Shown: piece after piece, positions 29,912 to 40,902 of the stretch
How the letters are laid out: the number at the start of each line of letters is the position of its first letter
Position numbering within the stretch: the first letter of the stretch is position 1
Assembly: GCA_038043445.1 (NCBI GenBank)
Contig: JBBTBY010000107.1
Coordinates: 1-43,608 of the forward strand
Length of the DNA stretch: 43,608 nucleotides
From: Spirochaetota bacterium
GTDB taxonomy: Bacteria > Spirochaetota > Brachyspiria > Brachyspirales > JACRPF01
Reading direction: 5' to 3'
The notes under the pieces: generated by a model
Told to the model about the DNA's origin: nothing
Database searches by the model: none
What the model saw: only the letters and a program-made list of their open reading frames with translations
Made by a program: the position numbers and the translations under genes

Positions 29912-29938
29912 AAAGCGGCGACAGCGCCGCTTTTTTAT
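29912..29938 (+). terminator. Rho-independent terminator after flgM
   Basis: AAAGCGGCG (29912-29920) and CGCCGCTTT (29925-29933) form a 9-bp stem around ACAG, followed by a T run. The A tract on the other side lets it serve the convergent AraC gene too, whose stop lies within it. Confidence 0.9.
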
Positions 29939-30792
29939 TTGTTGCCCATTGCGCCGGGGCGGCCGTAGAAATCACCGAATGAGGCGCGGTACTGCGCGGG
30001 AGAGACCCTCTCGAATTTCTTGAACCAGCGCGAAAAGTAGAACGGGTCGTCGAACCCGAGCGATGATGCTATCGATGCTATCGTGTCCGTACCGCCGGCC
30101 AGCCGCTTCCTCGCCGAATCCATTTTCAGCATCTTGAAATATGCCCCCGGAGCGCTGCCTGCGATGCGCGGGAAGATCTTGCGCACATATTCATAGCTCA
30201 ACGACGCGGACTCGCAGAAGAATGCGAGATCGAACGATGCATCAGCGACCTTGGACTTCATGCCCTGTATGACGCGGGAGACAGCTTCGTGCTCCCGTGT
30301 GAGTGCAGCCTCTGTCCTCCCCCGGAGAAGCATGCCGGCGAGCATGCCGGTCATTATCTCCGTGATACGGTCGATATACCGGGCAGGGTGTCTGTCCTTA
30401 AGCGCTATGCACGCATTCCAGCGCGTACGCACGGATCGATCATTCCCGAGATGTATGACAGGTCTCGCAGGGTCGAGCATGCCGTTGTCCCGCCATCGAT
30501 CGGCGATGTCACCCTCGAAAAGGAACCAGTAATGCGTCGACGGCGTCGATAATGAACCGTAGGTATGCCACACACCGGGGAACAAAAAATACGCTTCCCC
30601 CGCATTAATGGTACGCTGTGCCGTATAGTGCGATGCGAATTCGACCGAGCCCCTGGCTACATACACGACGGCGTATGTCGAAAGCGTTCTCCGCTCACGC
30701 GGCCATGTACCCGCGCTCAATCCCTGGCGCCCTACCCCGAGCGCCTCGATGCCGAGCGTATGCGCCCGAATGCTTCTCTCGCCGAACCACAT
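29935..30792 (-). CDS. AraC-family transcriptional regulator
   Basis: 285 residues. The sensor half contains RTLSTYAVVYVARGSVEF and the cupin motif NAGEAYFLFPGVWHTYG. The AraC domain includes ASLSYEYVRKIFPRIAGSAP and the signature LGFDDPFYFSRWFKKFERVS with PAQYRASF. It closely resembles the AraC protein at 35713-36549 in order and wording, so the two are paralogues. It lies downstream of the large glycosidase in the same direction and probably regulates it. The mRNA is predicted leaderless, from a promoter between the glycosidase stop and this ATG. Confidence 0.92.
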   Translation of the reverse strand: MWFGERSIRAHTLGIEALGVGRQGLSAGTWPRERRTLSTYAVVYVARGSVEFASHYTAQRTINAGEAYFLFPGVWHTYGSLSTPSTHYWFLFEGDIADRWRDNGMLDPARPVIHLGNDRSVRTRWNACIALKDRHPARYIDRITEIMTGMLAGMLLRGRTEAALTREHEAVSRVIQGMKSKVADASFDLAFFCESASLSYEYVRKIFPRIAGSAPGAYFKMLKMDSARKRLAGGTDTIASIASSLGFDDPFYFSRWFKKFERVSPAQYRASFGDFYGRPGAMGNK

Positions 30793-30840: not shown

Positions 30841-33037
30841 TCAGCGTGCGGTCTTCCGTTTCAGTTTGATCGCCGCATCCCGTTCGATGCGTTTGACCAT
30901 GACGGACACCGTGCCCCCCCGCGGCAGTGGTTTCGCTCTCTCCGACAAGCGATCCGCTGACGGGGTCGATGATGCGTACGGCATAGACGCCGCCGACAAG
31001 CCCGCTGAATTCGACCTGCACATCGTTCACCGCAACGGCATCGCGCTTGAGTATGCTTTGATAGAGCTGGCCGTAGGTGATGTTCGGGAGATATGCGAAC
31101 GCCTCCTCCGCGGAGGAGAGACCCTTCGCCCCGATGAGGCCCTTCGCATCGTCGATGTCGATAACGACGAAGTATTTCCCGACGCGCAGCCAGTCGCCCT
31201 CGGCGAGCGCGAGCGTTACCGTGCGCGCGCCTGCTGCGAGCGGCACATCGAACCACTGCTCGTCGGGCTTAAGCTCGCGCCTCCCGCCGGCATAGACGGT
31301 ACTGCGCGCCTGTGCCCCGTCGACCGCGGCGGTGAGTGTCTGATTGCCGCTCCCGATCTCATCGACGCGTGCAATGAACCGCCCGTTCCCCGGCATGTCG
31401 ATCGTGAACGACGGCGTGACACGCCAGGCAATGCGGTCGCTTCGCTTGGCATAGAGCGTGCGGCTCATGCCCGTAAGCCATACCGCGTTCTCTCCGGCAT
31501 CGATGGTGAACGTATCCGTAAGCGACTTCGCGCCCCAATCGGGGATATCGCCGTACGCCGAAGCAACGATGACGCGCGAGAACGAACTTCCCGCGGCCGA
31601 TGCCTTCACGACGCGCACCGCCGCCGGCCGCCACGTTGCGGATGCAAGCGGCAGATCGGATGCAAAGTCAAGGACATGCTTGAAGAGCGGCCATGCATCG
31701 GTGCGGTCGACCTTGGTGTGCTCCCATACCATGACGGCGGCCACCCCTTTCGCGAAGTTATCCCAGAGCTCGGTATGGAGCGAGTCTTTGAACCAGCGTT
31801 CATCTTCGGTGAAATAGCACTCCTGCACCACGCCGGGCTTTGCGAGCGTCGTCGCGCCCTGCGCGTAATCCATGCGTTCGTTCGCGGTGCGCTTGTAATT
31901 GGCGCCGTATATCATCGGCCTCCAGCCCTCCGTGAGCCGGTGCGCACAGTCGCGCATCTCGGTAATGAACGACATGGCATGTTCGTTCGCATCGTCGTAA
32001 TCATTGAATCCATTGAGCGCCCAGAGCGATCGGCTGTAGCCCCAGCGTGCGATGATGTAGCGCAGCCGTTTCTTGTACCATGGCCGTACCGCGGGGCTGC
32101 TGATGAAATCGGCCCCCGTCCCCGCCACGCCGCCGTTCGCGGTATTGTACGGATTGAATTTCCAGGAATCGTACGTCGTTCCGTTCATATGCTCGTTGTT
32201 GTCCTCGAGCGTGAGCATCACGGCGAATTCGTTCGATTCCGCCAGCGCAAAAACGCGATCGAGCTGGCAGGCTATCATCTGATTGTAGTAGCCGAGCCCG
32301 CCGTATCCCCTGTCGCTCATGGACTTCGGCGAGGGCATCCATTCGAGCCATGCCCAATGGCAGAGCCATACCCGCGTCGAGGATATCATGCCGCTTGCAC
32401 GTGAAAAATAATGCTCATACGACGGAACGCCCTTCGCCTTTTCACCGATGCGCGTCCACGGTACGTTCGCCCCGCTTCCGAAGAACGCGCTCCCGTCAGT
32501 ACGTTCGAAATAGTTCGGGTTCTTTTCCGCTATGCGTACGAACCCTCGTGCTTTCGACGGAATCACCGAAAACGACCGCGGCTCGGAAGACACTTTCTGT
32601 CCCTTCGAATCCCGCACCGCGATGGCAACGGTATGCACTCCGACTGCGGCGGATGAGAATCGCACCTTCCATACGCCCGGACCGAGCTTTCGGTAAGGGA
32701 GACTTCCCGTCATCTGGGTAAGGCCGTTCTCCGGTTCGTATGGAACAGCGTAGAACGCCGGGACAACCACGGTTTCGCCGTTGGGCTTGGTGATGACGGC
32801 GTTGACGAGTATATCTTCCGGGTCGAACGGATTCGTGTACGATACCTTCAGCTCGATATCCATTTCTAACTTTTCATACTGCCCTGTCGTCTCCGGGACG
32901 GTCAGGGCGGTCACCGACGGCGGCTCGGATAACGCCGATACGAACTGTGTCCGTATCGTGCGCAGAAGATCGTCGTTCTCTGCGGCGAACAGGGCGATCG
33001 AGAGGCTGATGACGGTACAGATGCGTATGATCTTCAT
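30841..33037 (-). CDS. Large secreted DUF5060-type glycosidase, frameshifted near its end
   Basis: Start ATG 33037 has GGAGGG upstream and a signal peptide (MKIIRICTVISLSIALFA). About residues 35-165 form a DUF5060-like beta-sandwich and 170-480 a TIM-barrel glycosidase domain. The rest is beta-rich. As printed, the frame runs past 30841, through the AraC promoter and into the AraC gene, ending at 30695. Removing one base from the C7 run at 30914-30920 gives a tail (GGTVSVMVKRIERDAAIKL) that ends at TGA 30841 and looks like the normal family C-terminus. The intact product would be 731 residues. Where relatives usually read WNE for the acid/base, this protein reads SLWALNGFND, so catalysis is uncertain. 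Confidence 0.75.
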
Positions 33038-33065
33038 AACGCCCTCCATGACGGTTTCTCCCCCT

Positions 33066-33094
33066 AGTATACACCATGGGAGCCTTCCCGCGAA
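33066..33094 (-). promoter_or_regulatory. Weak promoter of the large glycosidase gene
   Basis: Leftward -10 TATACT (33066-33071) with only a poor -35 (TTCGCG at 33089-33094, 17-bp spacer). A good -10 with a bad -35 is typical of promoters that need an activator, and AraC genes lie on both sides. Confidence 0.4.
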
Positions 33095-33134
33095 TGGCAG
33101 AAAGCGATTTCGGGATGTGTAAAATGAACATCAC

Positions 33135-33162
33135 TTTACGGGCTGTATGTGCATGGTACAAT
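33135..33162 (+). promoter_or_regulatory. Leaderless promoter of the AraC gene at 33169
   Basis: TTTACG (33135-33140), 16-bp spacer, TACAAT (33157-33162), six bases to ATG 33169. It favours 33169 as the start over an upstream in-frame codon at 33076. Confidence 0.6.
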
Positions 33163-33168
33163 GCGTTC

Positions 33169-33975
33169 ATGCGCACTGAGACGATCTACACCATACCTGC
33201 TCCGGACGATGCACCGATCCATGTCATGTCCGTGGGCATACTGCACGGATCGCCGAAGTACGTGCGCCGCAATACGCACAACGGCGGCATCACGTTCGCC
33301 TATACGCTCGGCGGGAGCGGCACCCTTTTCCTGAACGATACCCGGTACACCTATACCGCGGGCGATGTCTATGTGCTTCCCAAAGGCGTGTCCTATCAAC
33401 TGCGCTCCGACACGAATGCACCGTGGCGGAAGATATGGTGCTGGACGGTCGGCCCCCTTGCGGATGCCGTTGTCAGCGCCTATCGGCTGCATACGATGAA
33501 GTGCATCCCCTACGGTCCGCGGGCGCTCTTTAAAGACATGCTGAAAGCCGCCGGCGATGCGGACGACCCCGATCGCCATATGCGTATGGCACTGTTGTTC
33601 CATCGTATCGTGCTCGCCCTGTCGGGATCTATACGCACCAAGGAACGATATTCGCCGGCCGTACACAAGCTGATGGAATATCTCGACACCTCGGTGCAGC
33701 GGAAATTCCGGCTCTCCGCGGCCGCATCCGTCATCGGCAAGGGGACGGCGCAGACGATACGCATCTTCCGAAAGGAGACCGGTTTCACGCCGTATGATTA
33801 TCTCATCGACCGGAAGATGGCGCACGCGAAGAACCTTCTGGCATACGGTGACATGTCCGTCAGGGCGATCGCCCGCGAGCTCTGTTTCTCGGACGAATAC
33901 CACTTCTCAAAACAGTTCAAGCGCCGATGCGGATGCGCCCCGCTCTACTTCCGGCGGGACGCCCGTGTACGGTGA
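33169..33975 (+). CDS. AraC-family transcriptional regulator
   Basis: 268 residues from ATG 33169. The cupin half has HNGGITFAYTLGGSGTLFL and then TAGDVYVLPKGVSYQL. The AraC domain reads RKFRLSAAASVIGKGTAQTI and ends with the signature LCFSDEYHFSKQFKRRCGCA. It is divergent from the large glycosidase and 90 bp upstream of a URO-D-like gene with its own promoter. Either or both could be targets. Confidence 0.9.
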   Translation: MRTETIYTIPAPDDAPIHVMSVGILHGSPKYVRRNTHNGGITFAYTLGGSGTLFLNDTRYTYTAGDVYVLPKGVSYQLRSDTNAPWRKIWCWTVGPLADAVVSAYRLHTMKCIPYGPRALFKDMLKAAGDADDPDRHMRMALLFHRIVLALSGSIRTKERYSPAVHKLMEYLDTSVQRKFRLSAAASVIGKGTAQTIRIFRKETGFTPYDYLIDRKMAHAKNLLAYGDMSVRAIARELCFSDEYHFSKQFKRRCGCAPLYFRRDARVR

Positions 33976-34011
33976 TGTCCCAATTCGTCCATCCTGTTCC
34001 CATGAAGTCCA

Positions 34012-34040
34012 TTCAATCGCCCCCGTTCGAACAGTATACT
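34012..34040 (+). promoter_or_regulatory. Promoter of the URO-D-like gene at 34066
   Basis: TTCAAT (34012-34017), 17-bp spacer, TATACT (34035-34040). The ~19-nt leader carries AGGAGG. This leadered layout contrasts with the leaderless AraC gene just upstream. Confidence 0.5.
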
Positions 34041-34065
34041 AGTGGTGACTGCACAGGAGGATGCC

Positions 34066-35145
34066 ATGAATTACCGCGAGAACCTCATACGGGCGATGAC
34101 GCGCAGGGACCCGGAATTCGTACCGATGGAATACAGCTTCACCTCGACGCTTATCGATAAGATCAAGAACGAGGTACATGTCGAGAACGCATACGATCAT
34201 TTTAAAAGCGTGCACTATCACGCAAATCAAGGCATACGGAATATCGGCGCGAAGGCGTCCGCGCACAGGAACGACTATTCGCGTTACTTCGCCGGGCGTT
34301 CATTCGCGCATGAAGTAACTATCGATGAATGGGGCATAGGCCATCAGGCGGGTGATTTCATGCACTTCACGCATATGGAATCGCCGCTTATCAAGGCGGC
34401 ATCGATAAAGGACATCGAATCCTATCCCATGCCGGATATCGGCGCGGACTATCGCTGGGCGCATGCGAAGAGCGATGTGGACGCATTTCATAGCGACGGT
34501 TATGCCGTCAGCGCGTTCACCGGGCATACATTCGAGACGGTGTGGCAGATACGCGGAATGGAGGAATTCCTCTCGGACATGTATCTCAACCCGTCATGGT
34601 GCGAAGCACTCGTAGCCAGAATATTCTCCGTGAACATTGAAGTGGTCACACAAGCCGCATCCGCCGGTGTCGATATACTTCGCGTAGGCGACGACGTGGG
34701 GACGCAGATGGGAATGATGTTCTCTCCGGAGATCTGGCGCACGATGTTCAAACCGCGCATCAAGGCGTACATTGCCGCAGCAAAGGCGATAAAGCCCGAC
34801 ATACTCATCTGGTATCACAGCGACGGCGATATATCGGCGATAATCCCCGAGCTCATCGATATCGGACTTGATATACTCAATCCGATACAGCCGGAATGCC
34901 TTTCGCCGGACATGGTCAAGCGCGAATACGGTTCATCGCTCTCGTTCTGGGGCGTTGTCGGCACGCAGCAGCTCATGCCCTTCGGCTCTCCGTCGGATGT
35001 TAAAAAGGAGATCAAGCGGCTCATCAGCGTCGTCGGGAAGGGCGGCGGGCTCTGCCTTGCGCCGACACATGTGCTCGAACCGGAAGTGCCCACCGCGAAC
35101 ATCAAGGCGATGGTGGAAGCGGTGGAAGAATACGGCCGATACTGA
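34066..35145 (+). CDS. Uroporphyrinogen-decarboxylase-superfamily protein
   Basis: 359 residues from ATG 34066, set by AGGAGG. The fold is that of URO-D and corrinoid-linked methyltransferases (MtaA/MtbA type). The start reads NYRENLIRAMTRRDPEFVPM. The C-terminal half contains ILIWYHSDGDISAIIPELID, ILNPIQPECL, SFWGVVGTQQLMPFGSP and GLCLAPTHVLEPEVPTANI. In methyltransferases the zinc ligand is HxC in a HSCG context; here it is HSDG, so the Cys is replaced by Asp. No other heme genes are in the window, so a role in heme synthesis is unlikely. Function is unknown; it is probably regulated by the AraC gene upstream. Confidence 0.8.
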   Translation: MNYRENLIRAMTRRDPEFVPMEYSFTSTLIDKIKNEVHVENAYDHFKSVHYHANQGIRNIGAKASAHRNDYSRYFAGRSFAHEVTIDEWGIGHQAGDFMHFTHMESPLIKAASIKDIESYPMPDIGADYRWAHAKSDVDAFHSDGYAVSAFTGHTFETVWQIRGMEEFLSDMYLNPSWCEALVARIFSVNIEVVTQAASAGVDILRVGDDVGTQMGMMFSPEIWRTMFKPRIKAYIAAAKAIKPDILIWYHSDGDISAIIPELIDIGLDILNPIQPECLSPDMVKREYGSSLSFWGVVGTQQLMPFGSPSDVKKEIKRLISVVGKGGGLCLAPTHVLEPEVPTANIKAMVEAVEEYGRY

Positions 35146-35240
35146 AATGCGTTCGCCTCGGTGCGACACGGCTGTACAGAACACGAATGGCGTTCGCATG
35201 CCGACGCGGGTGATATCATCGCGTTCATTCCGCTCGAATA
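35146..35240 (+). pseudogene. Cupin-like fragment after the URO-D gene
   Basis: Reading on in the same frame after the URO-D stop, about 32 codons look coding. They include RHGCTEHEWRSHADAGDII and AFIPLEYHIVYRYI. GDIIAFIPLEYH fits the second cupin motif seen in the AraC sensors of this window. There is no start codon. It is most likely a scrap of a deleted AraC sensor domain. Confidence 0.3.
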
Positions 35241-35711
35241 TCACATCGTATACAGGTACATAAAAAAACCGCTCTGTCCGGGCTTCGTAATGATAACGCC
35301 GTGCATGAGCGGGGAGCGATAGAATGCCCGCGCATCGAACGTCACTGATGATGCATCGAGGTGCATCCGCTCAAGCGCCGCACGCATCGGCGCATCGACG
35401 GCTTTCATGATCGAAACGTCAGGGGCATCGCCCGTTGTCCGAACGGCAGAAGCAAGCACTTTCTTCATGCCGGCAGCATCGCACACAAGATACGCAATGA
35501 GCGCCCAATCCCCGGGGCCGAGACCGTCACCGCGGGATAGTTCAATTATCTGCCATCGCGCGGAGATCGGGCGTACCGGGAGCGTGATCGTTGCAGAAAG
35601 CTTCTCGACATCGGTGCTCGACGCCCGCATCGTTCCATCGTCGCTTCGTCCGCATCCGAGCATCGCCCCGAGCATACATGCGGCGAATACTGACAGCCTG
35701 AGCCGCTCCAC
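35241..35711 (-). CDS. Putative lipoprotein of unknown function
   Basis: 156 residues. The N-terminus has charged residues, a hydrophobic core and the lipobox LGAMLGC at about residue 20, so the mature protein is probably lipid-anchored. The rest shows no recognised domain. The start is GTG 35711, one base after the stop of the upstream AraC gene; GGGGCG in the end of that gene may serve as the ribosome site. The tight spacing suggests co-transcription with the AraC gene. Confidence 0.55.
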   Translation of the reverse strand: MERLRLSVFAACMLGAMLGCGRSDDGTMRASSTDVEKLSATITLPVRPISARWQIIELSRGDGLGPGDWALIAYLVCDAAGMKKVLASAVRTTGDAPDVSIMKAVDAPMRAALERMHLDASSVTFDARAFYRSPLMHGVIITKPGQSGFFMYLYTM

Positions 35712-35712
35712 G

Positions 35713-36549
35713 TCAACGCCCCGTGTCCGCGCCGAACGACCTGAACGCCATACGATAATCCGTCGGCGAGAGCGAGGTGAGCTTCGTGAACCACCGCGAG
35801 AAATAATACTGGTCGTCGAACCCCAACGCGTTCGCTATCGACACTACCGTTCCATCGCTCGTGACAAGCCGTTCCTTCGCCGTTCCAAGCTTTATCTGCG
35901 CGAAGTACGCCCCGGGCGTATAACCGGTCTCCCGCTTAAAACGCCGCCGCGTGTACTGAACGCTCAACTTCCCGCGTGTACAATATCCCTCAAAGTCAAA
36001 ATCCATCTCACGGACATTCGATCTCATTGCATGGATTATCCGGGCGATATCGTTCCCTGCGGTGCTCTCATCCCGATGTTCACCGGCGGCTATCACTTCC
36101 TGCAATATCGCGGTGGCGCGGCGTGCAAGTGACACATGAAAGCCCTGCGTACGGGATTCATCCATTGTAAGACATTCGTCCCAGAGAGAGACGATATTAT
36201 CGCTCTTGCCGACAGGGAATACCGGCGCTGCCGGAGAAAGGATGCCGTTCTCGCGGTAGCGATCGAGAATATATCCCTCGAAGATGAACCAGTATTCGAG
36301 CGACGGCGGAGCACCGGGCGTATACGTGTGTGCTATGCCGGGAAAAAGGAAGAACGCATCGCCCGCCGACACACGCCCGCCATCATGCGCATCGGACCTG
36401 AATTCATACCAGCCGTCGGTCAGATATACCACCGCATACACGGGCAGCGTCCGCGGTGCCGCTACACCGGTGGTGGAACGCTGTTTCCCGACACCGGTCA
36501 CTTCGAGCCCGAGCTTTTTCGCGATCGGATCGCGGGTGTGTATATACAT
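35713..36549 (-). CDS. AraC-family transcriptional regulator
   Basis: 278 residues from ATG 36549, a start supported both by the promoter and by alignment of MYIHTRDP with the N-terminus of its paralogue at 29935-30792. The sensor half contains RTLPVYAVVYLTDGWYEF and SAGDAFFLFPGIAHTYTPG. The AraC domain has GKLSVQYTRRRFKRETGYTP and the signature LGFDDQYYFSRWFTKLTSLS. It is divergent from the second URO-D-like gene, its likely target. Confidence 0.92.
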   Translation of the reverse strand: MYIHTRDPIAKKLGLEVTGVGKQRSTTGVAAPRTLPVYAVVYLTDGWYEFRSDAHDGGRVSAGDAFFLFPGIAHTYTPGAPPSLEYWFIFEGYILDRYRENGILSPAAPVFPVGKSDNIVSLWDECLTMDESRTQGFHVSLARRATAILQEVIAAGEHRDESTAGNDIARIIHAMRSNVREMDFDFEGYCTRGKLSVQYTRRRFKRETGYTPGAYFAQIKLGTAKERLVTSDGTVVSIANALGFDDQYYFSRWFTKLTSLSPTDYRMAFRSFGADTGR

Positions 36550-36556
36550 GAATAGG

Positions 36557-36584
36557 AGTATATCCCGATGTACGATTTTGTCCA
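36557..36584 (-). promoter_or_regulatory. Leaderless promoter of the AraC gene at 36549
   Basis: Leftward TGGACA (36579-36584), 16-bp spacer, TATACT (36557-36562), seven bases to the ATG. No Shine-Dalgarno. Confidence 0.6.
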
Positions 36585-36663
36585 TCATGACGACCACGCC
36601 GTCCATTCACCGGGGCGGCCATTATGCGTATGGTATCCCTGTATTTGAGCACAGGAGAACACC

Positions 36664-37830
36664 ATGACCGCAACAATGGAACGCGAACGTACAGCAGACG
36701 GCATTCACGCGATGGTGCCGTATGAGAACATGACCATCGGCGCACGGAAGATGCGCGACTTCTATGCGCAGAAACCGGGGGCGGCGTTCTATCAGCGCGA
36801 ATTCGGCTTCTATTCCCTCGATGCGTGGAAGGCCCAGGGCATGCCCCAGGATGTGCCGCATCATGTGCTTTTCGGTTTCGATCCGGCGGGCAAGCACAGT
36901 CTCGGCCAGATAGGCTGGTGCGAAGCGGGCTTCAATCCCGTCTTCGAGGACAAAGTGATAGAGGACCGCGGCGAGCATGAGGTGTATCAGGATTTCGCCG
37001 GCCGCCATGTGCTCGTATTCAAGGGGCGACGCTCGGGATTCATGCCGGAATACATCGATCATCCGGTAAAGGACATGCGCACGTGGAAAGAGCTCTGCGA
37101 GTGGCGCATGGACCCGTCGACGCCTGAACGCTACGCGGATCTTGACGTGCGTATGGAGAAGGCGAAGAAAGCCGCGGGCGAAGGACAAGTGATATGCCAG
37201 AACCTTGTCGGCGGCTACATGTATCTGCGTTCGCTCATGGGGCCGGAAGGGATACTTTACAAGGTGTATGACGACCCCGAATTGATACATGCCTGCATGA
37301 GGACATGGCTCACGCTCGCCGATGCCGTCATCGCGCGCCATCAGGAGCAGGTGACCATCGACGAGATATATTTCGGCGAGGACATCTGCTACAATGCAGG
37401 GCCGCTCATCGGGCCGGATATGATACGCGAATTCCTTTTCCCGTATTACCAAGCGCTTATCACGAACACAAAGCGCCGTCAGATCGATACTTCACGGCAT
37501 CTGTACGTAAACCTCGACACCGACGGCAAAGCGGCGACGGTCATCGACGTGTATAAAGAGATCGGCATGGACTACATGAACCCGTTCGAAGTGGCATCAG
37601 GATGCGACGTAGTGGAAGTGCGGAAAAAATACCCCGATCTTCTCATGCACGGCGGTTTCGACAAGCGTATACTCGCCAAGGGCAAGGACGCTATCGACCG
37701 CGAAGTTGACAGGATATTCCCGTTCATGAAAGAACACGGCGGATACATCCCCACCTGCGATCACGGTGTTCCTGAAGAAGTGAAGTACGAAGATTATTTA
37801 CACTACCGGAAGCGCTGCTTGGAATTTTAG
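36664..37830 (+). CDS. Uroporphyrinogen-decarboxylase-superfamily protein
   Basis: 388 residues, a distant relative of the protein at 34066. Segments typical of this branch are VICQNLVGGYMYLRSLMGPE, EIYFGEDICYNAGPLIGP and MIREFLFPYYQ. These are followed by MDYMNPFEVASGCDVVEVRK, LMHGGFDKRILAKGK and the C-terminal GGYIPTCDHGVPEEVKYEDY. The methyltransferase HxC metal motif is not visible where expected (YVNLDTDGK). AGGAG lies before the ATG. It is divergent from an AraC gene, making a second AraC/URO-D pair 2.6 kb from the first. Biochemical role unknown. Confidence 0.78.
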   Translation: MTATMERERTADGIHAMVPYENMTIGARKMRDFYAQKPGAAFYQREFGFYSLDAWKAQGMPQDVPHHVLFGFDPAGKHSLGQIGWCEAGFNPVFEDKVIEDRGEHEVYQDFAGRHVLVFKGRRSGFMPEYIDHPVKDMRTWKELCEWRMDPSTPERYADLDVRMEKAKKAAGEGQVICQNLVGGYMYLRSLMGPEGILYKVYDDPELIHACMRTWLTLADAVIARHQEQVTIDEIYFGEDICYNAGPLIGPDMIREFLFPYYQALITNTKRRQIDTSRHLYVNLDTDGKAATVIDVYKEIGMDYMNPFEVASGCDVVEVRKKYPDLLMHGGFDKRILAKGKDAIDREVDRIFPFMKEHGGYIPTCDHGVPEEVKYEDYLHYRKRCLEF

Positions 37831-37917: not shown

Positions 37918-40629
37918 TTACAGAAAAAACAGCGGGATGGCAATACCGAACGTATATCCGAAGCGAGCGTCCCGTATCGCATAATTGCCCTCGGCGTAGA
38001 ACTCCACCGGCACGTAGGGGTGCACGGCGAGGTGTACACGCAGATAGCAGGACTGAAGGAATGTATCCGCGTAATACGCCGCGCGATACCCGCCGGTGCA
38101 ATAGAACCGCCGCACATAGAGCGAAAGGAACAATATACCCTGCTGTATCTCAATGTTGAAGAGAAGCGACTTCGCCTCGGCATGGATATAATACCATGAG
38201 CCCACCGTATCATCCCGATATTCGAGAAAAGAGGGATAATGTGATGCGAGCGAATAGGCAAGGGCGCCGGACGGGCGGAAAAGACGTCTATCGCTTGCGG
38301 CACCGTACGCAGCGAGGCGCAGGGGAAAGAACGGCACGGCCGCCTCGAACGATGTTTCATACTTCCACGCACCCGAAGGAAAGCTCACGTCATAGTAATG
38401 AGAGAACGCTATGCCCCGCCCCTGCAGAAGCCTCTCCTTGATGTTCGTATCGAGCTCGGTAATGCCGTTATAGCCGACAGACACCCCGCACAGCACGGCG
38501 TACCCCGCATACGGCCATTGATACGCGCTCACCGCATCCGTCAAAGCAGAAGCGATAATACCGCCTGCGGACGCGCGCATGAAAAAATGTTCGCCGTTCA
38601 GAGGGAGATCGATGCGCAGGAAAAGGTCCGCGTCAGCGCGTGTCAGCCGCCTGTCATAGAACGTATACGCGCTCGCAAGCGTATCGGAGATGGAAAGTCG
38701 CCACCATATCGGGAGCGTTGTGTTCTGCCACGTGAAATTCAGTCCGGCGAAATTACGCACATAATTGTACACCGCCGTGAAAAGAAAGGCATTCTCTTCT
38801 ATCGGGTCATCCCCGTAGACGAGGAAACCCGCCTCGACGAAGGCATTGCCGAACGTATTGAGATACGGCACCGCATACGGCATCCACATGCGCGGGAGAA
38901 GCCAGCCAAATCCGTTGTAGGCCATGACCGGATGCACTATCGACCTGCTCTCTGCTTCGGCATTCGTACACGGGCGCATCGGCGCATTCGTTCTGAGCAT
39001 CCGCGGCAGCGGCATTGCCATTATCGCATCGCGCTCGGAGCCGGTGGACACATAGTAGAGCGTGTTCGACAGCACGGCAGGGAACGCCACGCCGCCGAAC
39101 ACATTGTTCGTCATGAGCGACACGAACGCACCATCGATGACAGCGGCTTTATAGAACGTATCATCATTATTGCATGCAAGGACGATCTTCCCCTCGCATA
39201 CGGACAGATGCATACCGTATTTCACCGGGATATCGTATCGCTTCATAACGCCCGTTGTCGTGTCGAGTGAACGCACCGTTGTCACGCCGTCCTCGCTGGC
39301 GAGAAAGGCTATGTTCTTTTCATCGACGGCTTCGGGGCGGCCGAAATAGAGCGTCTCCCCTCCTTCTGCGAGAACACGCTCGCTTCCGTCGGGTGCGATG
39401 AGAACGATATCGGTGAGCGAACCGCGGCTTGACAGGGCAAGGATATGTTCGCCCCGGAACGAGCAATCGCTCACACGCTTTTCAATGACACGCGCCGTGA
39501 ACGAGCGGCTGCGTATATCGAAAAACCGGACACTGGACCTGACGACACCGCCCTGTATCGGCATGGTCTCAAGGAGCAAGAGCGACCCGTCGGGGGAAAC
39601 ATCGAATGAGCGGAGCGAGGAGATAGGAAGTACGGTACGGACATCGTTGGGGGAATGCACATCGATGCATTGTATCGCATCGTCGCGTGCATCATAGAAC
39701 CAGAGCCTTCCCGCTCGGAGACGCATGGCTGATACGAGAATATCGCCGGCGAGTGTAACCCCATTCGATACAAAACCGTTCGTGTATCGGAACGTTTCCT
39801 TGAATGCATCCCATACCGCGGAGAAATTCATTTTCAGTTCGCCGTCCATTGCACCGTCAATGCCCATGAGATTCCATGCCATGTTCGTCCACAGACGGGG
39901 TATCACCTTCTCCCCGTAACGCTCGGCAAGATACCGGTGGAAGAGCCCGCCGTAGTGATACGGGATAGCGCCGTTCGGAACGATATCGAACCCGCCGGCA
40001 GCCTGCCCCGGCGACTTGAACCTGTTCTCACGATGGTCCTGCAGGAGCATCTGCCGCACCGATGGATGATGCGCGCGCCCGAAGCCCTCGGCGCTTTCGG
40101 CATGTACGGCGACGCCCTCCACCATGGATCGCGGAAGAAGCGCCGTGATCGACACCCAGTTCCCGAACACGGCAGCGAGGGGCGAAGCGATGCCGTCACG
40201 CAGGGAGAGCGTTACGATATGCGTGAGTTCGTGCGTGAAGAGCGTATCGAGATAATTGCTGTAATGGAACGATATCGGCATGGGATAGTCATAGAGCGTG
40301 ATGCGGTTCTCAGGGAGTATCGTCGCATAGCCGTTGGCCGCATGCATATCGCGCGTGACCGTGACCGTGATGCGCGGACGCGGTGTGCACATGAAATACG
40401 CGCAGAGGCGTTCGTATCGGTCATCCGCGAACGCGGCGAGAGAGGATGCTGACGGGCGGCAATCCTCGGGGAAGATAATGTCAAAATACTTCGTCTGCGC
40501 AACAGAAAGCGGTTTGCCGCTGTCATAGAGCCGTGCGGAAAGCGGGATCGCCATGCAGACGGCAATAAGGATGAAGGGACGGAACGCTCGTTTCGGCATC
40601 CGCTGGCGCAGGTTTGTATCGTACGGCAT
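37918..40629 (-). CDS. Envelope-associated protein: zincin peptidase, beta-propeller, barrel-like C-terminus
   Basis: 903 residues from ATG 40629. A signal peptide covers roughly residues 12-32 (FRPFILIAVCMAIPLSA). The peptidase part has FTHELTHIV (His133, Glu134, His137) and then SMVEGVAVHAES with Glu171 or Glu178 as the third zinc ligand. About residues 290-590 read as repeated beta-propeller blades (FDVSPDGSLLLLE). The last ~300 residues alternate polar and aromatic residues as in an outer-membrane barrel and end in IPLFFL. This three-part layout resembles proteins I recall from Bacteroidota and spirochaetes. The message is predicted leaderless. Barrel membership is inferred. Confidence 0.72.
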   Translation of the reverse strand: MPYDTNLRQRMPKRAFRPFILIAVCMAIPLSARLYDSGKPLSVAQTKYFDIIFPEDCRPSASSLAAFADDRYERLCAYFMCTPRPRITVTVTRDMHAANGYATILPENRITLYDYPMPISFHYSNYLDTLFTHELTHIVTLSLRDGIASPLAAVFGNWVSITALLPRSMVEGVAVHAESAEGFGRAHHPSVRQMLLQDHRENRFKSPGQAAGGFDIVPNGAIPYHYGGLFHRYLAERYGEKVIPRLWTNMAWNLMGIDGAMDGELKMNFSAVWDAFKETFRYTNGFVSNGVTLAGDILVSAMRLRAGRLWFYDARDDAIQCIDVHSPNDVRTVLPISSLRSFDVSPDGSLLLLETMPIQGGVVRSSVRFFDIRSRSFTARVIEKRVSDCSFRGEHILALSSRGSLTDIVLIAPDGSERVLAEGGETLYFGRPEAVDEKNIAFLASEDGVTTVRSLDTTTGVMKRYDIPVKYGMHLSVCEGKIVLACNNDDTFYKAAVIDGAFVSLMTNNVFGGVAFPAVLSNTLYYVSTGSERDAIMAMPLPRMLRTNAPMRPCTNAEAESRSIVHPVMAYNGFGWLLPRMWMPYAVPYLNTFGNAFVEAGFLVYGDDPIEENAFLFTAVYNYVRNFAGLNFTWQNTTLPIWWRLSISDTLASAYTFYDRRLTRADADLFLRIDLPLNGEHFFMRASAGGIIASALTDAVSAYQWPYAGYAVLCGVSVGYNGITELDTNIKERLLQGRGIAFSHYYDVSFPSGAWKYETSFEAAVPFFPLRLAAYGAASDRRLFRPSGALAYSLASHYPSFLEYRDDTVGSWYYIHAEAKSLLFNIEIQQGILFLSLYVRRFYCTGGYRAAYYADTFLQSCYLRVHLAVHPYVPVEFYAEGNYAIRDARFGYTFGIAIPLFFL

Positions 40630-40636
40630 GGAACGC

Positions 40637-40665
40637 AGTATAAACGCGGCAGCGTGTGACGTCAA
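40637..40665 (-). promoter_or_regulatory. Leaderless promoter of the envelope peptidase gene
   Basis: Leftward TTGACG (40660-40665), 17-bp spacer, TATACT (40637-40642), seven bases to ATG 40629. Starts further upstream would lie inside the promoter. Confidence 0.65.
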
Positions 40666-40713: not shown

Positions 40714-40902
40714 CTACCGCCGGTATGACCGCACCGCACTCATTATCATGACGGCAACGACCGGCAGCGTTACAGCGCCGAGCACGACAAGTTCCGCTCT
40801 GCCGCTGACGATCGCCGGAAGAAGTCCTCCGGCGAGCCAGAAAAGCATGAACGCCAGCGCGGGAAAGAGGGAAACAAGGCGTTGCACTATATACCCCCGC
40901 AT
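40714..40902 (-). CDS. Small two-helix membrane protein
   Basis: 62 residues from ATG 40902, overlapping the end of the carotenoid-like gene by 16 bp. Two hydrophobic segments (FPALAFMLFWLAGGLLPAIV and VVLGAVTLPVVAVMIMSAV) are separated by a short polar turn. The C-terminus is basic (RSYRR). The overlap and matching direction suggest co-transcription. No family recognised; it could help assemble the preceding membrane protein. Confidence 0.5.
   Translation of the reverse strand: MRGYIVQRLVSLFPALAFMLFWLAGGLLPAIVSGRAELVVLGAVTLPVVAVMIMSAVRSYRR

Follow-up and report, generated by a model that had tools for sequence, protein, structure and literature searches.

Seven-G tract near the end of a DUF5060 glycosidase gene: most likely an ordinary run-length error or allele

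The locus and its two reading frames

The window analysed here, a stretch of 43,608 nt taken as a whole, encodes on its minus strand a glycosidase flanked by two AraC-family regulators, one downstream and one divergent and upstream (Table 1). Close to its 3′ end, the glycosidase gene contains exactly seven G, bounded by C on either side, as obtained by direct reading and recomputation; this is the sole G/C run of at least 7 in the window. Six or seven G at this position lead to different ends. With six G, the tract supplies two Gly codons, followed by 23 codons and a stop that lies 48 bases short of the start codon of the downstream AraC gene (ATG 30792). With seven G, the frame stays open for 72 codons beyond the two Gly codons and enters the AraC gene. 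The first-pass annotation had placed a seven-G run 24 codons before the expected end of the glycosidase, with a six-G frame closing at TGA 30841 and a seven-G frame running into AraC, and each of these points proved correct.

The presence of such a run in the window is expected by chance, since shuffled windows hold 3.1 G7 runs against the 1 observed, and at least one is present in 93 of 100 shuffles. The own genome contains 111 exact G7 runs.

The sister locus (L022) contains nothing closely related to the downstream AraC gene. Adjoining the glycosidase on its other side, at 33076–37830, two URO-D-family (Pfam) genes are interleaved with AraC-family regulators, and a 915-aa ORF with neither a Pfam nor an NCBIfam match at E 0.001 occupies 37918–40665.

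Table 1. Features of the glycosidase locus and gene breaks at other G-tracts of the same assembly.
Feature	Position	Strand	Evidence or remark
AraC-family regulator, downstream of glycosidase	29935..30792	-	overlapped by the glycosidase (98 bases) in the seven-G frame only
As-written seven-G ORF, 784 aa	30695..33049	-	stop TGA 30697-30695; last 72 residues unconserved, entering the AraC gene
DUF5060 glycosidase, conserved six-G extent, 735 aa, interrupted at the tract	30841..33049	-	Pfam, 7 homologues, read-through translation, ManDH5 fold match
Conserved C-terminal tail, six-G frame, TVSVMVKRIERDAAIKLKRKTAR	30841..30913	-	ends at TGA 30843-30841; final pair of predicted beta-strands
G7 run (C7 on the + strand)	30914..30920	-	one base over what the family frame permits
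AraC-family regulator, divergent, upstream of glycosidase	33076..33975	+	50% identical protein beside the sister glycosidase
Sialidase break, G7	C113		downstream piece BNR_2 1.6e-23; upstream piece without Pfam match
kdpA break, G8 (L137)	C100:275-282		profile positions 25-87 in one frame, 79-548 in another; only copy found
FAD oxidoreductase break, G8	C45		both pieces match PF12831
Beta-helix protein break, G13 (L049/L111)	C25:11115-11127		downstream piece Beta_helix 2e-8; upstream piece none

Conservation of the reading frame and the predicted protein

Seven homologues with identities of 40–63% were found in 14 candidate stretches, their titles naming Spirochaetes, Paenibacillaceae, Victivallales, Zipacnadia, Planctomycetota, Phycisphaerae, and Kiritimatiellota. 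In all seven, the six-G frame continues beyond the tract site; a C-terminus in the seven-G frame was looked for and found in none. Six of the seven stop within 19–28 residues, the exception being the Phycisphaerae homologue (L027). There, the glycosidase reading continues in phase beyond the usual end for several hundred more residues.

The six-G tail of the window protein, TVSVMVKRIERDAAIKLKRKTAR, matches that of the sister, KLAVTIKRLERDAAVKVKRK, and more loosely those of the other homologues. Its BLOSUM62 score summed over the seven homologues comes to 253 where shuffles average 107, a value that none of 2000 shuffles reached; the seven-G tail scores 91 against the same seven, and 706 of 2000 shuffles are equally high. 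Moreover, a similar end motif is seen by eye in 10 of 13 distant DUF5060 relatives read to their stop, among them a paralogue from the own genome that ends in GGSLTAAIPPVEKDIACKIYKQ, while L010, L012, and L018 display no clear end motif by eye. These distant relatives came partly from a looser search in which 6 of 61 genomes matched; with the family profile at E 1e-60, only the own and the sister genome matched among 392 genomes of the phylum (2/392). The first row of this profile is the read-through form of the window protein. Of its 691 model positions, the match to the window ends at 670 (base 30914), while that to the sister extends to 690. As judged by sequence comparison, the conserved reading of the glycosidase is thus the six-G frame, supported by the homologue frames, the matching tail, and the predicted last two strands, and the end expected by the first-pass annotation agrees with it.

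The glycosidase matches Pfam DUF5060 (PF16586; 4.2e-7, 30.6 bits versus a gathering cut-off of 27.2), and hits no other entry of Pfam or NCBIfam at E 0.001. Its N-terminus resembles a signal peptide, and the enzyme is probably secreted. According to fold comparison, it probably adopts a GH5 beta-mannanase-like fold. Among solved structures, the nearest in fold is the GH5 beta-D-mannanase ManDH5 from Dictyoglomus thermophilum (PDB 9gmj, 9gpa, 9gpc, 9gpe, 9gpg), which shares the DUF5060 front domain and the catalytic barrel (profile match 3.8e-56 across profile positions 5–323; Foldseek match to 9gpe_A with E 1.3e-36, TMq 0.61, TMt 0.78) but differs in its length of about 565 aa against 735 and is only 17% identical in the fold alignment. 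Further, the family carries Asn349-Asp350 in 8 of 8 alignment rows where ManDH5 has Asn-Glu at the aligned position. The window codons for these two residues lie at 32000–32005 on the minus strand, and E410 is likewise invariant in the family alignment. The Glu of the ManDH5 pair, E303, is the residue mutated according to the PDB entry titles and presumably its acid/base residue. Hence the protein shares the fold of GH5 mannanases and has Asn-Asp in place of the catalytic Asn-Glu at the acid/base position, for which reason it is filed here as a DUF5060 relative and not as a mannanase; judging from these residues, the DUF5060 subfamily may have an altered acid/base residue or catalyse a different reaction. 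A literature search on DUF5060 combined with glycoside hydrolase returned no relevant paper.

The read-through form was modelled with AlphaFold2 at a mean pLDDT of 83, and its final strands, 713–721 and 724–731, lie in blocks of pLDDT 94. Going by strand order, they would close a C-terminal all-beta domain. A seven-G protein would lose these two outer-domain strands and, because the catalytic barrel precedes the break, would keep the active-site region.

Two readings of the altered end can be weighed at this point. One takes the seven-G frame as real and functional, in which case the C-terminus has gained an extension that overlaps the AraC gene. The 72 open codons are in its favour; the two conserved strands are replaced, however, the tail resembles the seven homologues no better than shuffled sequence does, and its model confidence is mostly below 50. 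Blocks are mostly at 26–32, and the one stretch of 55–73 is where the aligner placed part of the foreign tail over the strands of the family. We give this reading virtually no credence. The other sees an older pseudogene, an enzyme decaying in this lineage. The gene is frameshifted, and the own genome has no second close copy, only a 31% relative; yet the 735-codon reading is otherwise free of frame breaks and stops, the protein is still 62% identical to that of the sister, and the family-invariant residues are retained, which makes long-standing decay extremely unlikely.

G-tracts across the assembly and in the sister genome

To place the tract among others, a coding model asked at each run whether one base more or less raises the likelihood, and flagged cases were then read as translations. 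In the own genome, the census covered 65 G6, 100 of 111 G7, all 23 G8, 10 of 11 longer runs, and 346 A/T runs of at least 6; the one long G run left out adjoins a gap. Flags fell on one G6, three G7, three G8, one longer run, and four A/T runs, compared with 5 of 600 random sites. On reading, five of about 130 G-tracts of at least 7 break a gene, the window tract included, whereas no gene proved to be broken at a flagged A/T tract. The caution of the first-pass annotation that homopolymer indels can be assembly errors fits this outcome.

The four other breaks affect a sialidase, kdpA, an FAD oxidoreductase, and a beta-helix protein (Table 1). We presume that a FRIP motif joins the upstream sialidase piece to its BNR_2 partner. 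In the FAD oxidoreductase, the upstream match spans residues 60–190 and the break lies near residue 412, in what by eye is a second nucleotide-binding motif. All four breaks at G7 or G8 (window, sialidase, kdpA, and FAD oxidoreductase) are one base too long, and since the frame after each still reads well, they appear to be recent or artefactual. At the G13 run, joining two long, out-of-register, beta-helix-like frames takes one base more or two bases less, and this run has a stronger claim to being a variable tract than the G7 of the window.

The same test raised no flag in the sister genome at 47 of 47 G7, 6 of 6 G8, and 7 of 8 longer runs, the remaining one being a G20 at a contig end; three flags over the line at other runs of the sister are gene ends or overlaps. 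Breaks thus number 5/128 in the own genome and 0/60 in the sister (P 0.18), 5/128 at G/C and 0/106 at A/T runs (P 0.065), and they differ between G8-and-longer and G7 runs with P 0.084, none of which is significant. The excess of breaks at G-tracts is weak and these contrasts are suggestive.

Flagging depends on the model used. A simple codon-usage scan was dropped because it could not separate the frames close to tracts. An HMM without gene overlaps scored the window tract too high (+33) and also raised a flag in L030, at a junction between the end of one gene and the start of the next; once overlaps were permitted, the score of the window tract came down to +8.4, and in a retrained model the window (6.9) and the sialidase (6.0) both fall below the flag line of 7. 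The five breaks therefore rest on the translations, which were not read blind, on the Pfam pieces, and on the kdpA profile pieces. As a short tail like that of the window is near the limit of the test, other short-tail breaks may be missed.

Rejected as gene ends or overlapping starts were L030 G7, L050 G6, L133 G8, L065 A8, and L112 T8; L060 T6, L067 A6, L143 T6, L117 C5, L126 G5, and L136 T7; L081 G6, L043 G5, L080 A6, and a C5 run at 40894 in the window; and, in the sister, L190, L193, L200, and L181. Extra flags in L128 and L030 that adjoin named tracts are the same events.

Origin of the seventh G

Very probably, the seventh G is a sporadic, unprogrammed one-base gain in a G-run by a length slip, which may have occurred in the DNA of the cell, giving a recent strain allele, or in the reads, the strain mixture, or the consensus of the assembly. 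An error or strain mixture has close to an even chance of being the source, and a true recent mutation somewhat less than an even chance. Both the role of slippage as the cause and the absence of any regulation are our inference; no evidence for regulation was found. Homopolymer indel alleles and assembly frameshifts are a known kind of event with the same one-base gain in a mononucleotide run and an intact later frame, and no tested feature distinguishes the window tract from them.

Several observations bear on where the slip took place. In mutS-deficient Vibrio lines, the rate of single-base indels rises with homopolymer length, and wild-type lines show more deletions than insertions (PMC5854121); the latter makes repeated +1 slips in cells a less favoured account. 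In both the own and the sister genome, the frames that match MutS (domain V) and MutL are open, so that the idea of a mutator was rejected and a real excess of breaks would lack this explanation. On the technical side, a ten-N gap in C38 hints at scaffolding of short reads by the assembler, which makes long-read homopolymer error less likely. The gap adjoins a G14 run at C38:2115-2128 (L113/L123), between two long repetitive reading frames. Contig ends carry a G15 (C62:11-25, L115), a G16 (C80:46347-46362, L119), and, in sister G001, the G20 (C21:283562-283581), all of which resemble assembly break points or two-colour poly-G artefacts. The no-signal poly-G described for two-colour Illumina chemistry (PMC13218037) belongs to the ends of reads and does not fit an inner G7.

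The first-pass annotation had also pointed to G-tracts as classic sites of phase variation and slippage. As a contingency tract, the run would toggle the C-terminus of the enzyme between intact and altered forms, a fair idea given that poly-G tracts with phase variation are discussed for Treponema pallidum (PMC7864442, among others). The window tract shares with the poly-G contingency tracts of spirochaetes and other bacteria that it is a G-run within a gene, in a genome whose nearest relative places it with Spirochaetes, and the own genome also has runs of 9–16 G, including the G13 within the beta-helix gene. It differs in being short, at the 3′ end, and unconserved. While contingency tracts sit where they switch a gene on or off and are kept in relatives, this one lies 24 codons before the end, outside the promoter and the 5′ part, and leaves the remaining protein unchanged; the longest G run at the matching codons is 2–3 in all seven close homologues, so that no tract is conserved. 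The family search yielded, besides the own genome, only a single one from a different genus. Moreover, a G7 is expected by chance, and the single-copy kdpA is broken in the same manner. Phase variation is consequently improbable here, and a function of the tract in switching or slippage found no support.

Rescue by slippage, in which sufficiently frequent slips of RNA polymerase or the ribosome along the G-run would yield the six-G protein from seven-G DNA, requires an intact, conserved frame past the tract, and such a frame exists. Programmed slippage or frameshifting goes with both products or the tract being conserved; the seven close homologues show neither. Furthermore, homopolymer transcription insertions in E. 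coli and Buchnera all occurred in A/T runs, G/C runs being described as not slippage-prone, and of the transcription deletions in E. coli less than 1% started within a homopolymer (PMC5574713). The restriction of insertions to A/T runs speaks against rescue by RNA polymerase, and together with the unconserved tract it renders rescue very improbable. Most likely, then, an ordinary length error or allele in a G-run shifts the conserved last two strands of the enzyme out of frame.

The significance is mostly one of annotation hygiene: the proper record is a frameshifted DUF5060 glycosidase with its conserved stop at 30843–30841, and not a 784-aa protein overlapping AraC. Since several G-tract breaks are present, calls of broken or missing genes from this assembly, such as kdpA, need care. 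Should reads reveal genuine mixtures of tract length, the broken tracts would be a ready list of candidate variable loci. It is a long shot that the G7–G13 tracts across secreted enzymes, transporters, and surface proteins act as a diffuse, low-frequency switch instead of a few contingency loci; if they did, changes in tract length would give this lineage of the spirochaete phylum standing, reversible loss-of-function variants genome-wide.
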